Part shown: positions 12,025-16,596 of the stretch, in pieces
Numbering within the stretch: the stretch's first letter is position 1
Layout: each line of letters opens with the position of its first letter
NCBI GenBank assembly: GCA_029251005.1
Contig: JAQXEE010000147.1
Coordinates: 1-34,438, forward strand
Direction: 5' to 3'
Origin: Flavobacteriales bacterium
GTDB lineage: Bacteria > Bacteroidota > Bacteroidia > Flavobacteriales_C > GCA-002722245
Length of the DNA stretch: 34,438 nucleotides
Notes under the pieces: generated by a model
The model's input: the letters and a program-made list of their open reading frames with translations, nothing else
Databases searched by the model: none
Told to the model about the DNA's origin: nothing
Made by a program: the position numbers and the translations under genes

Positions 12025-12870
12025 TTAGGCTTTTACCTCTAATTTATTAGGTAGAAGAGTTTTACCAATCAAAGTTGTAATCAAAATTAATCCCATAAAA
12101 ACACCAATAGTTGGAACTGTAGGTATGTCAAAAAGAACTGCTAACAAATGTCCAGAGATACAGCTGATTATTCCAAACAATATTGAGATAACCAAAAAGG
12201 ATTTAAGTTTTCGTGTAATTAAATTTGCAAAAGAGGCTGGTATAACGAGCAGACCGATAACCATAATAGCACCAACACTATCAAAGCTATATACAGTTGA
12301 AATACTTGTTAAACCTAACAATAAGTAACTCCAAAAGGGAATTGAAATCCCTAATGTTTGGGCGAAACCCTTATCAAAACTTGTAATCTTAAAGCCTTTA
12401 AGTCCAAAACTAACAATGATCAAATTGATGATTGTAATGATGATTAAGTTAAACGTAGGAGTTGGAACTCCAACTGTTTTATCTACTAATGGAGTGGTGT
12501 TAATGTCTCCAAACAAAACACAATCAACATCAATATCAGCATTTTTGGCTTTTGAAGTAATTAAGATAATACCTACAGCAAATAGTAAAGTGTAGATAAT
12601 TCCAATAGAACTGTCTTTTCCAAAACCACCTACACGGTTTAACCAATCAATTAATAAAATAGCAAAAATTCCAAATCCACTAGCTCCTAAAAGCATCCAA
12701 AATGAGTTGATTTCTCCAGATATTAAAAAAGCGATTACAATACCAGGAAGAACAGCATGAGACAAAGCATCACCAATTAAGCTTAGTTTTTTTAACACTA
12801 AAAAGCTCCCCAATAAACTACTGTTTATGGCAATGATACAAGCGGTTAATATAATCCAGAAATCAAACAT
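12025..12870 (-). CDS. troD: Mn/Zn ABC transporter permease, ABC-3 family
   Basis: Integral inner-membrane subunit of the metal importer encoded by the four preceding genes. The 281-residue length and the long run of hydrophobic helices are normal for the ABC-3 (ZnuB/TroC/TroD) family. Family blocks seen are SLLGSFLVLKKLSLIGDALSHAVLPGI near the N-terminus and the GAIMVIGLLVIPASFANL block near residue 205-222. The start ATG overlaps the previous stop in a TAATG, a translational coupling signal. Symbol assigned by operon order and similarity to the TroABCD type; Mn versus Zn preference cannot be read from this subunit. Confidence 0.88.
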   Translation of the reverse strand: MFDFWIILTACIIAINSSLLGSFLVLKKLSLIGDALSHAVLPGIVIAFLISGEINSFWMLLGASGFGIFAILLIDWLNRVGGFGKDSSIGIIYTLLFAVGIILITSKAKNADIDVDCVLFGDINTTPLVDKTVGVPTPTFNLIIITIINLIIVSFGLKGFKITSFDKGFAQTLGISIPFWSYLLLGLTSISTVYSFDSVGAIMVIGLLVIPASFANLITRKLKSFLVISILFGIISCISGHLLAVLFDIPTVPTIGVFMGLILITTLIGKTLLPNKLEVKA

Positions 12871-14168
12871 TAGTCTTCGTAGGGTATATTTTGTTGATGA
12901 GGGTCATTTACTGGTTTACCCATTAATTTTAATAATTCAGCTTCTAATTGAGGCGTCATTATATGTTCAATCGTTTCAGCACTTTCGTGCACATGGTCAC
13001 TTTGTATTTGCATAAATTTTTGCATGTACAATTCCCATAATCTGTGAATTCTAATAATTCGCTTTGCTTCAGAAATGCCTTTTTCTGTAAGCATCCATAA
13101 ACTACCAGCTTTAATAGCTAGACCTTTTGTTTTTAACAAGCGTAAACCTGTTTTTAATTCATTTAAGGGAGTGAATCGGTAATTTAAAATCTCTTCAATC
13201 GTTCGGGCTTTGGTTGTTTCGGCTTCTTTCTCTCCAATTTTATACAAGTTCTTTAAAACGTTATCGGATAACATTTTCTTGGTGTTTTTTGAAGCTTTAA
13301 TGTGTTTAGTGAACAGTCCTTTAGGGGAAAAGAAAGCAGAGAAAATAGCGATACTTGATAAAGAAACAATGATCCAAGGTCCTGTAGGCATATCAGGTGA
13401 TAGGTAGGAGATGAAAACTCCAGCAATGCTACTAAGTGTGGCAAATAGCCCTGAAATTAAAATAGACTTTTTGAAATTTTTAGTCCAGAAAAAAGCGGAT
13501 GATGCAGGTGTAATAATTAAAGCACTCATTAAAATAATCCCAACAGTTTGAATTCCAATGGCGGTTGATATAATAATTAATCCTGAAATTAACCCTTGAA
13601 TAAATTGTCGATTTAACCCAATGGTTTTTGAGAATTCAGGATCAAACAATGCTATTTTAAAATGTTGGTAGAAGAGGGGGATAATTGTTAAGACTAAGGC
13701 ACTCATTGTCCCAAATACGTATAAATCATTACGAACGATTGTGGCCGCTTTTCCAAATAAAAAATCGGATAATCCACTTTGGTTACCATTTCCTGAATGT
13801 TGTATAATGTTTAAAAAAATAACTCCAACACTAAACATCACCGATAGCGTAATAGCAATGGCCGCATCTTTTTTAATTCGGGAAGTTTTGGAAATCCAAT
13901 CAACTAAATAAACCGCTATGATTCCAGCTATGATTCCACCTGATATTAAGTACACAGGACTTTTAACGCCTGAAAGCATAAAACCAATACAAATCCCAGG
14001 AAGGATAGAGTGGGAAACAGCATCAACAATCAAAGCTTTTTTATTTAAAACGACTAATACACCAACAATACCGCAAGTGAATCCAAGCATGATGGTCCCG
14101 AACAGTACATTTGTAATGTTGGTGTCCTGAAAGGAAAAAAAGTATATAAGGTCTTTCCAAAAATCCAT
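12870..14168 (-). CDS. troC: Mn/Zn ABC transporter permease fused to a DtxR-like metal-sensor domain
   Basis: Residues 1-285 are a normal ABC-3 permease (helices, LNKKALIVDAVSHSILPGI, MSALIITPASSAFFW). Residues about 300-432 are an extra cytosolic domain that aligns with DtxR/MntR repressors: a winged helix (about 305-370, ending MLTEKGISEAKRII) and the metal-binding dimerisation domain. Positions equal to DtxR His79, Glu83, His98, Cys102, Glu105 and His106 are His375, Glu379, His394, Glu398, Glu401 and His402; Glu at the Cys102 position is as in MntR. The N-terminal ligand (DtxR Met10, MntR Asp8) appears to be Asn. The segment resembles the stand-alone regulator of the same operon (HRLWE...NDPH...IP) but lacks its FeoA-like end. 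ATG overlaps the ATPase stop in TAATG. The domain may gate transport when metal is plentiful; that is inference. Confidence 0.9.
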   Translation of the reverse strand: MDFWKDLIYFFSFQDTNITNVLFGTIMLGFTCGIVGVLVVLNKKALIVDAVSHSILPGICIGFMLSGVKSPVYLISGGIIAGIIAVYLVDWISKTSRIKKDAAIAITLSVMFSVGVIFLNIIQHSGNGNQSGLSDFLFGKAATIVRNDLYVFGTMSALVLTIIPLFYQHFKIALFDPEFSKTIGLNRQFIQGLISGLIIISTAIGIQTVGIILMSALIITPASSAFFWTKNFKKSILISGLFATLSSIAGVFISYLSPDMPTGPWIIVSLSSIAIFSAFFSPKGLFTKHIKASKNTKKMLSDNVLKNLYKIGEKEAETTKARTIEEILNYRFTPLNELKTGLRLLKTKGLAIKAGSLWMLTEKGISEAKRIIRIHRLWELYMQKFMQIQSDHVHESAETIEHIMTPQLEAELLKLMGKPVNDPHQQNIPYED

Positions 14169-14956
14169 TATGATTCTCTAATTGGAAATTGTTTTTCTTT
14201 ATAAATCTGACCAATTTGCTCTAGCATACTTAAGTTTCCACCATAAGTGTTTTGCAATATTTCGGTTGTAAAAACTTCGCTTAGGGGGCCACTGGCAACA
14301 ATTCTGGTATTTAAAAAGATCATCCAGTCAAAGTAATCCATTGCCGATTGTAAATCATGATGGACAACAAAGATTGTTTTTCCATCTTCTTGTAACTGCA
14401 ACAATATATCTACAATTGCCTTTTCGCTGGCCATATCAACACCAGAAAATGGTTCATCCATAAAGTATATTTCCGCTTCTTGTGCTAGTGCACGTGCAAT
14501 AAATACCCGTTGCTGTTGGCCTCCGGATAATTCTGAAATATGTCGATCAGCAAAATCTAACATTTTCACTTTTTTTAAAGCTTCAACTGCAATTTGCTTG
14601 TCTTCTCTATTTAAACGTTTGAACAAACTCTTTTTTCCATAGCGTCCCATTTCAACTACATCTAAAACAGTAGTAGGGAAATCCCAGTCTACGGATTCTT
14701 TTTGTGGAACATACGCTACTTTATGACGAACTTGTTTAAGGTTTTCATTTAATATTTTAGAAAACCCACTAGCAATTGGGATTAAACCCATAATGGCTTT
14801 AAGTAAAGTGGATTTACCCGCACCGTTAGGCCCAACAATTCCAACCATTTTGCCCTTAGGGATACTAAAATCAGCATTCCATAAAACAGGCTTATTGTCA
14901 TAAGCAACAGTTAAATCATGAACTTCAACAATCGGGTTTTTAACTTGCTTAATCAT
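14168..14956 (-). CDS. troB: Mn/Zn ABC transporter ATP-binding protein
   Basis: ATPase that powers the TroA-dependent metal importer from the cytoplasmic face of the inner membrane. The 262-residue protein has Walker A GPNGAGKST at 42-50, Q-loop YVPQKE at 81-86, the ABC signature LSGGQQQR at 142-149, Walker B IYFMDEP at 162-168 and a switch histidine in VVHHD (196-200). These are all intact. The pattern, including the VDWDFPTTV segment after the Q-loop, is typical of the ZnuC/TroB/MntB group. Its start overlaps the end of the binding-protein gene by 8 bases and its stop overlaps the permease start, so the whole set is translated as a coupled unit. Confidence 0.93.
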   Translation of the reverse strand: MIKQVKNPIVEVHDLTVAYDNKPVLWNADFSIPKGKMVGIVGPNGAGKSTLLKAIMGLIPIASGFSKILNENLKQVRHKVAYVPQKESVDWDFPTTVLDVVEMGRYGKKSLFKRLNREDKQIAVEALKKVKMLDFADRHISELSGGQQQRVFIARALAQEAEIYFMDEPFSGVDMASEKAIVDILLQLQEDGKTIFVVHHDLQSAMDYFDWMIFLNTRIVASGPLSEVFTTEILQNTYGGNLSMLEQIGQIYKEKQFPIRES

Positions 14957-15866
14957 TCGTTAAAGCCGTTACGATTGAGTTAGTATTCATTTTAACCATT
15001 TTAATATACGTATCAGCACCACTTTTCGCATCACCTAAACCATCACTAAAAAGCATTTTACCTTTTTTCAAGTTTAGTCCTTTTGCAGAACAGCCCTCCA
15101 TGACAGAATTGATATTTTTTTCAGAAACTGAATTTTCGATAAAAATTGCAGGGATTTTTTTCGCTACAATAAAGTCGGTTAGTTCTGTAATTCCTCTAAT
15201 CGAAATATCCGATGCAGTTGAAATTCCTTGAACTCCTTTTACTTCAATATTAAAAGCTCTACCATAATATCCAAAGGCATCATGAGCAGTAATTAACACA
15301 CGAGAAGAATCGGGGATCTTCGTTACTTCTTTTTTGATGTATGCTTCAGTTTCTCCAAGTTGTTTTACGTAAACACTCGTAGCTGAATCGATATAAGCTT
15401 TGGAAGCAGGGAACTGTTTGCCAAATTGTACTCCAGCCAACTTTATCGATTCTGAAAATAGGTTGACATCATGCCAAAAATGTGGGTCGTAAGCCGTTCC
15501 GAAATCAGTAGTTGCTCTTAATCGCTCTTTAGGGACAATATTTCCTAATCCAACAACAAACTTATTTTTACCTAACTCATGTATTGCATCAACTAGGTTT
15601 GATTCAAAATGGATTCCGTTATATATAATACCATCGGCATTCATTAAATTTTTCAACTCTGAACTTTTACTCTTATAAGTGTGCGGATCAACTCCAGGTC
15701 CCATTAATGCTTTTACTTCAAAATATGCAGGGAGAATGTTTTGCATTGCATCAGCTATCACGCCAGTGGTACAAATTATTTGTGTTTTGTTTGATTCCGC
15801 AGCTTCTCCGCAACTTGATAAGATTGAGGTGAATAAAACAAGGGATAATGCATTAATAATTTTCAT
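14949..15866 (-). CDS. troA: TroA-like Mn/Zn-binding lipoprotein of the ABC importer
   Basis: Captures divalent metal in the periplasm and delivers it to the TroBCD importer. With the ATG at 15866 (305 residues) the signal peptide ends in a lipobox LSSC with Cys19, so it is an anchored lipoprotein. Four expected ligands are present: His62 (GVDPHTY), His129 (DPHFWHD), His195 (TAHDAFGYYGR) and Asp275 (FSDGLGD). The His3-Asp set and the block VKGVQGISTASD match the TroA cluster A-I proteins. There is no long His-rich loop of the ZnuA type, which argues mildly for manganese or mixed use. An upstream ATG at 15887 exists, but the chosen start lies one base after the regulator stop and begins a cleaner signal peptide. 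Confidence 0.92.
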   Translation of the reverse strand: MKIINALSLVLFTSILSSCGEAAESNKTQIICTTGVIADAMQNILPAYFEVKALMGPGVDPHTYKSKSSELKNLMNADGIIYNGIHFESNLVDAIHELGKNKFVVGLGNIVPKERLRATTDFGTAYDPHFWHDVNLFSESIKLAGVQFGKQFPASKAYIDSATSVYVKQLGETEAYIKKEVTKIPDSSRVLITAHDAFGYYGRAFNIEVKGVQGISTASDISIRGITELTDFIVAKKIPAIFIENSVSEKNINSVMEGCSAKGLNLKKGKMLFSDGLGDAKSGADTYIKMVKMNTNSIVTALTND

Positions 15867-15867
15867 A

Positions 15868-16530
15868 CTAATTATCTTTTGAAACATTTAAATTTTTTGA
15901 TACTAAATCCGAAAATGTTAATTCTGTTTTATTATTAATTTTTACTTGTATAGATTTGTCAAATTTAAAAAAGTCTAAAACCTCAATTTCAGATCCTAAT
16001 TTCAGATTAATTCCATCTAGGTATCTTAGGAAATCCTTAGAATCTTCTGATACACCTGTAAGGATAGCTTCTTCACCAATTTTAAGTTCGTTTAGTTTGA
16101 ATATTTTAAGTTTTGGGAAAACACCATTTTTATCGGGAATAGGGTCGCCGTGTGGATCGTTTTTAGGATAGCCTAAATACTCATCCAATTTATCTATTAG
16201 TTTTGGAGAACGAATATGCTCAAGTTGTTCTGCGATTTCATGAATTTCATCCCAGCCAAACTCCATTTTTTCCACTAAAAACACTTCCCAAAGCCGATGC
16301 TTTCTAATTACCATAAGTGCAATGTTCTCGCCTTCTTTTGTGAGTGTAGTGCCTTGGTATTTTATGTAGTTAACTAAATTTTTGTCTGATAGTTTTTTAA
16401 CCATATCAGTTACGGATGAAGCTTTGGTAGACAATTCTTCTGAAATTGAATTGGTGGAAACACCTACTTTATCTTTGCCACTTAATTTAAAAATTGCCTT
16501 TAAATAATCCTCAGTTGTGCTTGTTTGCAT
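15868..16530 (-). CDS. troR: DtxR/MntR-family metal-dependent repressor
   Basis: Likely senses Mn (or Fe/Zn) and represses its own operon. The 220-residue protein has an N-terminal winged helix, a metal-binding dimerisation domain, and a C-terminal FeoA-like SH3 domain (about 140-215). Metal-site residues are Asp8 (TTEDYL), His78, Glu82, His97, Glu101, Glu104 and His105. Asp at position 8 and Glu rather than Cys or Met at 101 are the manganese-type pattern of MntR; the residue matching B. subtilis MntR Glu11 is Lys, so the site is not identical. I chose the ATG at 16530: a TTG six codons upstream lies inside the -7 promoter box and so cannot be translated from that promoter. First gene of the operon. 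Confidence 0.9.
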   Translation of the reverse strand: MQTSTTEDYLKAIFKLSGKDKVGVSTNSISEELSTKASSVTDMVKKLSDKNLVNYIKYQGTTLTKEGENIALMVIRKHRLWEVFLVEKMEFGWDEIHEIAEQLEHIRSPKLIDKLDEYLGYPKNDPHGDPIPDKNGVFPKLKIFKLNELKIGEEAILTGVSEDSKDFLRYLDGINLKLGSEIEVLDFFKFDKSIQVKINNKTELTFSDLVSKNLNVSKDN

Positions 16531-16538
16531 TTTGGGAA

Positions 16539-16557
16539 GTTTTAGCAAAGATAAAAC
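16539..16557. promoter_or_regulatory. Candidate TroR operator, 19-bp inverted repeat
   Basis: GTTTTA, seven bases, TAAAAC: a perfect 6+6 inverted repeat with one more pair inside (C16546/G16550), so 7 of 9 half-site positions match. Its 19-bp length is that of classic DtxR-family operators. It completely covers the -7 box, so a bound repressor would block transcription. The sequence itself is not a DtxR or MntR consensus. Confidence 0.5.
16546..16553 (-). promoter_or_regulatory. -7 box of the tro operon promoter
   Basis: On the minus strand this reads TATCTTTG, an exact TAnnTTTG match, ending 15 bases before the troR ATG. No clear TTG -33 element is found at the normal spacing, as is common for regulated promoters. 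Its position decides the troR start codon. Confidence 0.65.
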
Positions 16558-16596
16558 AATTTTAGGGTTGTCTAAATACCTAGTTTGGGGGAGTCT

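Follow-up and report, generated by a model that had tools for sequence, protein, structure and literature searches.

Within the window, a stretch of 34,438 nucleotides from a Flavobacteriales bacterium, five minus-strand genes form a metal ABC importer operon that is transcribed in the order MntR/TroR regulator, ZnuA-like binding protein, ATPase, fused permease and second permease. The stand-alone regulator (15868..16530) combines an HTH, a metal domain and FeoA. It is followed by a substrate-binding lipoprotein of the ZnuA/TroA type (14949..15887) and an ABC ATPase of the TroB/MntA type (14168..14956), both assigned by Pfam; a TroC/MntB-type permease of 432 amino acids (12870..14168), in which an ABC-3 transmembrane domain is joined to a DtxR-type cytosolic tail (ORF, Pfam, AlphaFold model and structure match); and a TroD-type permease of 281 amino acids (12025..12870; ORF and Pfam) that has no tail. 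The DtxR-type tail is therefore carried by only one of the two permeases at this locus. The genome encodes just two copies of PF02742, one in the fused tail and one in the stand-alone regulator, and both lie at the locus.

A permease with a DtxR/MntR domain

The initial annotation described about 130 extra residues on the permease as akin to DtxR/MntR repressors, and three lines of evidence bear this out: a Pfam match, a profile comparison and a structural superposition. The ABC-3 domain (PF00950, E 4e-61) covers residues 15-280 (13329..14126, minus strand). Beyond it lie a winged-helix part at residues 302-368 (13065..13265, minus strand; alignment and AlphaFold model) and the Fe_dep_repr_C metal-binding/dimerisation domain at residues 361-429 (12882..13088, minus strand), which was matched at E 2e-21 and 76 bits against a cutoff of 27. 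The domain search suggested for the tail thus succeeded for its C-terminal domain but not for Fe_dep_repress, the N-terminal HTH model, which had no Pfam match in the fused permease. A profile of 23 tail sequences matched the structures of SloR, DR2539, ScaR, IdeR, DtxR and MntR across the entire tail, winged helix included (E 7e-20 downwards), and comparison of the tail profile with the profile of the stand-alone regulators aligned 132 columns (E 2e-27). In the AlphaFold model of the fused permease (mean pLDDT 88.8), Foldseek superposed the tail on Mn-bound DR2539 over 131 columns with a TM score of 0.82 by target length and an rmsd of 1.9 Å, and it also matched IdeR. We consider it confirmed that the last ~130 residues of this ABC-3 permease are a DtxR/MntR domain, comprising a winged helix and a metal/dimerisation domain.

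In fold and ligand positions the tail resembles the DtxR/MntR family, with D. radiodurans DR2539 (8pvt, 8pw0) the closest and SloR, ScaR and IdeR also similar; it differs from these regulators in being membrane-tethered, in lacking the SH3/FeoA domain and in its unconserved recognition helix. The permease part resembles the PsaBC/MntBC manganese importers (7kyp) both in fold (TM 0.91 to PsaC) and in its DHD metal residues. Among fused-permease relatives D49 and H53 are invariant and D101 is nearly so, and these positions, matched by eye, are those of the essential MntBC residues D47, H51 and D94 (PMC8487065). Unlike the fused permease, PsaBC/MntBC have no cytosolic tail, and their permease is homodimeric.

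The stand-alone regulator and the spread of the fusion

A separate, related regulator had been reported in the same operon, and it is indeed present, with a corrected start. The first-listed TTG start (16548) sits in the promoter, within a TATCTTTG promoter-like element at 16546-16553, and translation probably begins at ATG 16530. Just upstream of this -7-like element is a predicted operator, ATTTAGACAACCCTAAAA (consensus TTTTAGAYNNRTCTAAAA; 16560..16577, minus strand). Of 60 loci, 33 have the palindrome TTTTAGAYNNRTCTAAAA ahead of the stand-alone gene, where 0.3 would be expected. A conserved predicted operator beside a stand-alone regulator points to a repressor that serves this operon and acts at a site of its own. 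The search at the threshold used found no TTTTAGAYNNRTCTAAAA / TTTTAGAY operator ahead of the regulator in the Pontibacter loci (e.g., L106, L115, L117 and L122); the regulator HTH is conserved there despite the missing TTTTAGAY match, and the site may have moved or changed.

In the window's own family, 8 of 10 genomes had a match, and all 8 carry the fused permease together with a nearby stand-alone regulator. The fused copy of one genome (G251) contains an in-frame stop. Across 395 Bacteroidota genomes, 27 encode the full fusion and about 39 a permease ending after the winged helix, both counts being approximate because they are set by where the profile match ends. A one-genome-per-species scan returned 80 named fusion loci, almost all of them assigned to Bacteroidota by title or placement; genera with the fusion include Pontibacter, Algoriphagus, Echinicola, Reichenbachiella, Chryseobacterium, Parapedobacter and others. 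The co-occurrence with a stand-alone regulator that the initial annotation had singled out for a survey recurs widely: a stand-alone DtxR gene lies within about 5 kb of the fusion in 65 of the 80 loci, and several of the other 15 are cut by contig ends. The usual gene order is regulator, binding protein, ATPase, fused permease and second permease. The mainstream fused tails group together in a single clade from which all stand-alone regulators are excluded (100/100).

In one genus, represented by three genomes that are 99-100% complete (G204, G220 and G327), the fused tail is the only DtxR domain. We considered whether the tail acts as sole regulator where the stand-alone protein is missing and did not favour this, since in these three genomes the tail HTH is degenerate as well and the search ahead of the fused gene found no operator. 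Five loci (L187, L188, L189, L190 and L191) contain orphan fused permeases, with no ATPase or binding-protein gene recognised within 12-13 kb; in three of them, from one genus, the orphan fusion is the only DtxR domain in the genome.

Constraint on the metal site, the DNA contacts and the linker

The six tail residues originally named as metal-site positions (H375, E379, H394, E398, E401 and H402) all align with DtxR-family ligand positions and, together with a fusion-specific invariant H392, are encoded within 12963..13046 (minus strand). They are near-invariant: H375, E379, H394, E401 and H402 are conserved in 69 of 69 relatives, and E398 is Glu in 59 and Asp in 10. N303 (13260..13262, minus strand; alignment), which we take to be the first-helix ligand position occupied by M10 in DtxR and D8 in MntR, is a possible seventh ligand position; it is Asn in 66 of 69 relatives, and the equivalent position is Asn in 90% of stand-alone homologues. 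From the alignment and superposition, we infer that the six residues would converge on one metal site. Relative to the stand-alone regulators, the tail has lost 0.04 bits of information at the ligand positions, and in the joint alignment its metal domain is conserved at 3.29 bits, compared with 3.53 for the regulators of the same loci.

The two proteins diverge strongly at positions adjacent to the ligands: from stand-alone regulator to tail, W99 becomes Pro, Ser or Ala at 390, F97 becomes Ile, Leu or Val at 388, and E101 becomes His392. These substitutions bear on the idea that the tail pairs with the stand-alone MntR, holding it at the membrane and coupling transport to repression. Such pairing would draw on dimerisation domains that both proteins possess and on their shared operon, and it would give a partner to a tail that has no obvious one, because only one permease carries a tail here. 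The divergence of the ligand-adjacent positions between the paralogues speaks against it, as do genomes that have a fused gene but no stand-alone DtxR domain, and we regard the pairing as quite improbable.

The winged helix is conserved at 2.16 bits in the tail versus 2.93 in the stand-alone regulators. Averaged over the positions that we take to be equivalent to the DNA contacts of DtxR/IdeR, the loss in the tail reaches 1.90 bits, while the mean for all columns is 0.51 (resampling of alignment columns gives p about 1e-4), and the DNA-recognition residues of the DtxR/MntR family are not conserved in the tail. Ser37, Pro39 and Gln43 have been discussed as contact residues of DtxR/IdeR (PMC8464063). 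Hydrophobic core residues of the winged helix (L338, L342, L345, W358 and L360) are conserved, which argues that its fold is kept. The variable HTH is not explained by lineage-specific DNA recognition or operator drift, a cause that was ruled out within Pontibacter and a Cyclobacteriaceae-centred set: among 16 Pontibacter loci, the contact positions have a mean pairwise identity of 0.35 in the tail versus 1.00 in the stand-alone regulator, and the metal domain one of 0.88 in both. Residual DNA binding by the tail is possible, given that IdeR reads DNA mostly through shape and backbone contacts (PMC8464063) and that the tail winged helix has a net charge of +3.8.

In the AlphaFold model, a continuous helix at residues 285-314 (13227..13316, minus strand) starts where the last transmembrane segment of the membrane domain ends and continues into helix 1 of the winged-helix part. 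The stretch that begins with G284 and ends at residue 302 has the same length, 19 residues, in every one of the 69 relatives and is strongly basic. This constant helical connection suggests mechanical coupling, unlike a flexible, protease-sensitive linker. A free tail produced from an internal translation start was also considered and set aside; a Met between residues 285 and 305 is present in only 40 of 69 relatives, so the feature is not conserved. That the tail might be a passive metal acceptor or a vestigial domain with no regulatory role would accord with the lost constraint on its DNA-contact surface, but strongly conserved ligands and a linker length that stays fixed down to about 41% identity make this the remotest of the readings considered.

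The joining of a metal permease to a DtxR domain is already known from Chlamydia. YtgCR (CT069/CTL0325 of C. trachomatis), overlooked in the initial annotation when it stated that it knew of no demonstrated function, has the same architecture: an ABC metal permease with a C-terminal two-domain DtxR tail of ~139 residues, encoded in a metal ABC operon. During infection this tail is released by cleavage, and it represses its own operon and trpBA in an iron-dependent manner (PMC5599777, PMC6504234, PMC7755916). By analogy, the Bacteroidota tail could be freed by proteolysis, or remain membrane-tethered in the fashion of ToxR, and repress transcription when loaded with metal. The shared architecture, with its 139-residue cleaved repressor tail, invites this interpretation, as do the intact metal/dimer domain and a winged helix that has kept its fold and is basic. 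Yet the contact positions are unconstrained even inside one genus; most loci have a stand-alone regulator with conserved HTH and operator; where the stand-alone DtxR is missing, the HTH is again degenerate and the upstream search revealed no operator; and the linker is a constant-length helix rather than a flexible cleavable stretch. Compared from its literature description, YtgCR also differs in that its tail is the only known iron-dependent repressor in Chlamydia, whereas a separate repressor is present in most loci here and no cleavable linker is predicted. We therefore think repression by the tail rather unlikely, and the YtgCR cleavage mechanism, judged by alignment and model, probably does not apply to the window permease. 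A literature search, covering part of the literature, found no published study of Bacteroidota permease-DtxR fusions. What appears to be new is the apparent loss of DNA reading with metal-site residues fully retained, the fixed helical attachment and a second set of tails.

A candidate sensor on the importer and its relatives

We propose that the tail is a cytosolic metal sensor that would regulate the importer post-translationally and would no longer serve as a DNA-binding repressor, a reading based on patterns of sequence constraint to which we assign a probability of about 0.62. Of the earlier suggestion of a sensor on the transporter, the core holds up as the best fit to the evolutionary evidence (a constrained metal site, released DNA contacts, a rigid and constant attachment and a separate repressor); its trans-inhibition and its direction of control are still proposals. 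At high cytosolic Mn2+ or Fe2+ (or Zn2+), metal would fill the site formed by H375, E379, H394, E398, E401, H402 and N303. The filled site would alter the conformation or dimerisation of the tail, and this change, relayed by the rigid helix and by contacts to the ATPase or the partner permease, would slow transport. The stand-alone MntR at the head of the operon would provide transcriptional control via the conserved operator. The least certain steps are the identity of the metal, as the sequence does not tell Mn, Fe and Zn apart, and the direction of the effect, which could be inhibition or else activation or stabilisation.

Trans-inhibition by the tail is plausible by analogy, and, since trans-inhibited importers are known, the most economical assumption is that high metal would inhibit. 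In MetNI and ModBC, the regulatory domains are located on the ATPase and have other folds. The proposed logic is alike, with a cytosolic regulatory domain that senses the imported substrate and slows the importer; the window domain differs in lying on the permease and in being derived from a metalloregulator, and inhibition here is only proposed. Little is known of post-translational control of ABC metal importers. If the sensor reading is correct, these importers read cytosolic metal themselves beside a transcriptional repressor of the same family, a repressor has become part of a transporter, and there is a limit to how widely the cleavage model of Chlamydia YtgCR can be applied. With ligand residues, tail boundary and operator all defined, the sensor hypothesis is directly testable.

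Similarly, FeoB is an importer controlled by small winged-helix/SH3 domains of the DtxR-regulator kind, FeoA and FeoC; unlike the system described here, it is a GTPase-type importer whose domains are separate or differently fused and have no DtxR metal site. FeoC protects FeoB from FtsH (PMC10710835). The tail could likewise govern assembly, stability or turnover of the importer, with metal marking or protecting the complex. This possibility gains from the FeoC precedent and from related importers that have, on both of their permeases and at the same helical spacing, a winged-helix tail lacking the DtxR metal domain. By itself, however, it leaves the near-equal conservation of every metal ligand unexplained, and we consider it improbable.

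These winged-helix-only tails are also of interest for the sensor reading. They are colinear with the fused tail from the same glycine, clearly so for the TroC type (hhalign 98%, E 3.5e-14) and more weakly for the TroD type (91%). TroD-type tails (mean identity 42%) conserve H24, H28 and E37 in 33 of 33 sequences and H46 in 32 of 33; TroC-type tails conserve H32 in 31 of 31 and H39 in 28 of 31. By their conservation, the His and Glu residues look like metal ligands of a second kind, at a separate site. The Bacteroidota ABC-3 importers could then be a widespread family with in-cis metal sensors, built on one winged-helix scaffold at a fixed helical distance and bearing at least two metal sites, DtxR and HxxxH-E-H; on sequence comparison, we hold the odds of this broader view to be even.

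Several loci depart from the usual layout. In L167-L173 and L180-L186, winged-helix tails that lack the DtxR metal domain occur on both permeases, except that in L173 only the second permease has one. In L177-L179, the fused permease lies in an operon with regulator, binding protein and ATPase, and no second permease was recognised nearby; this importer may be homodimeric and bear two tails. In L174-L176 the fused DtxR tail is longer and includes an additional, weak FeoA/SH3 match, giving a permease of about 495 amino acids, and the operator is present upstream of the fused-permease gene of L174 (L191 is a wider stretch around L174). Finally, Chryseobacterium encodes near the importer a DtxR-like gene of 125-129 amino acids (L109:2715-3104 and L118:2678-3055, minus strand) that has kept the HTH and lost the metal ligands, a mirror image of the fused tail.
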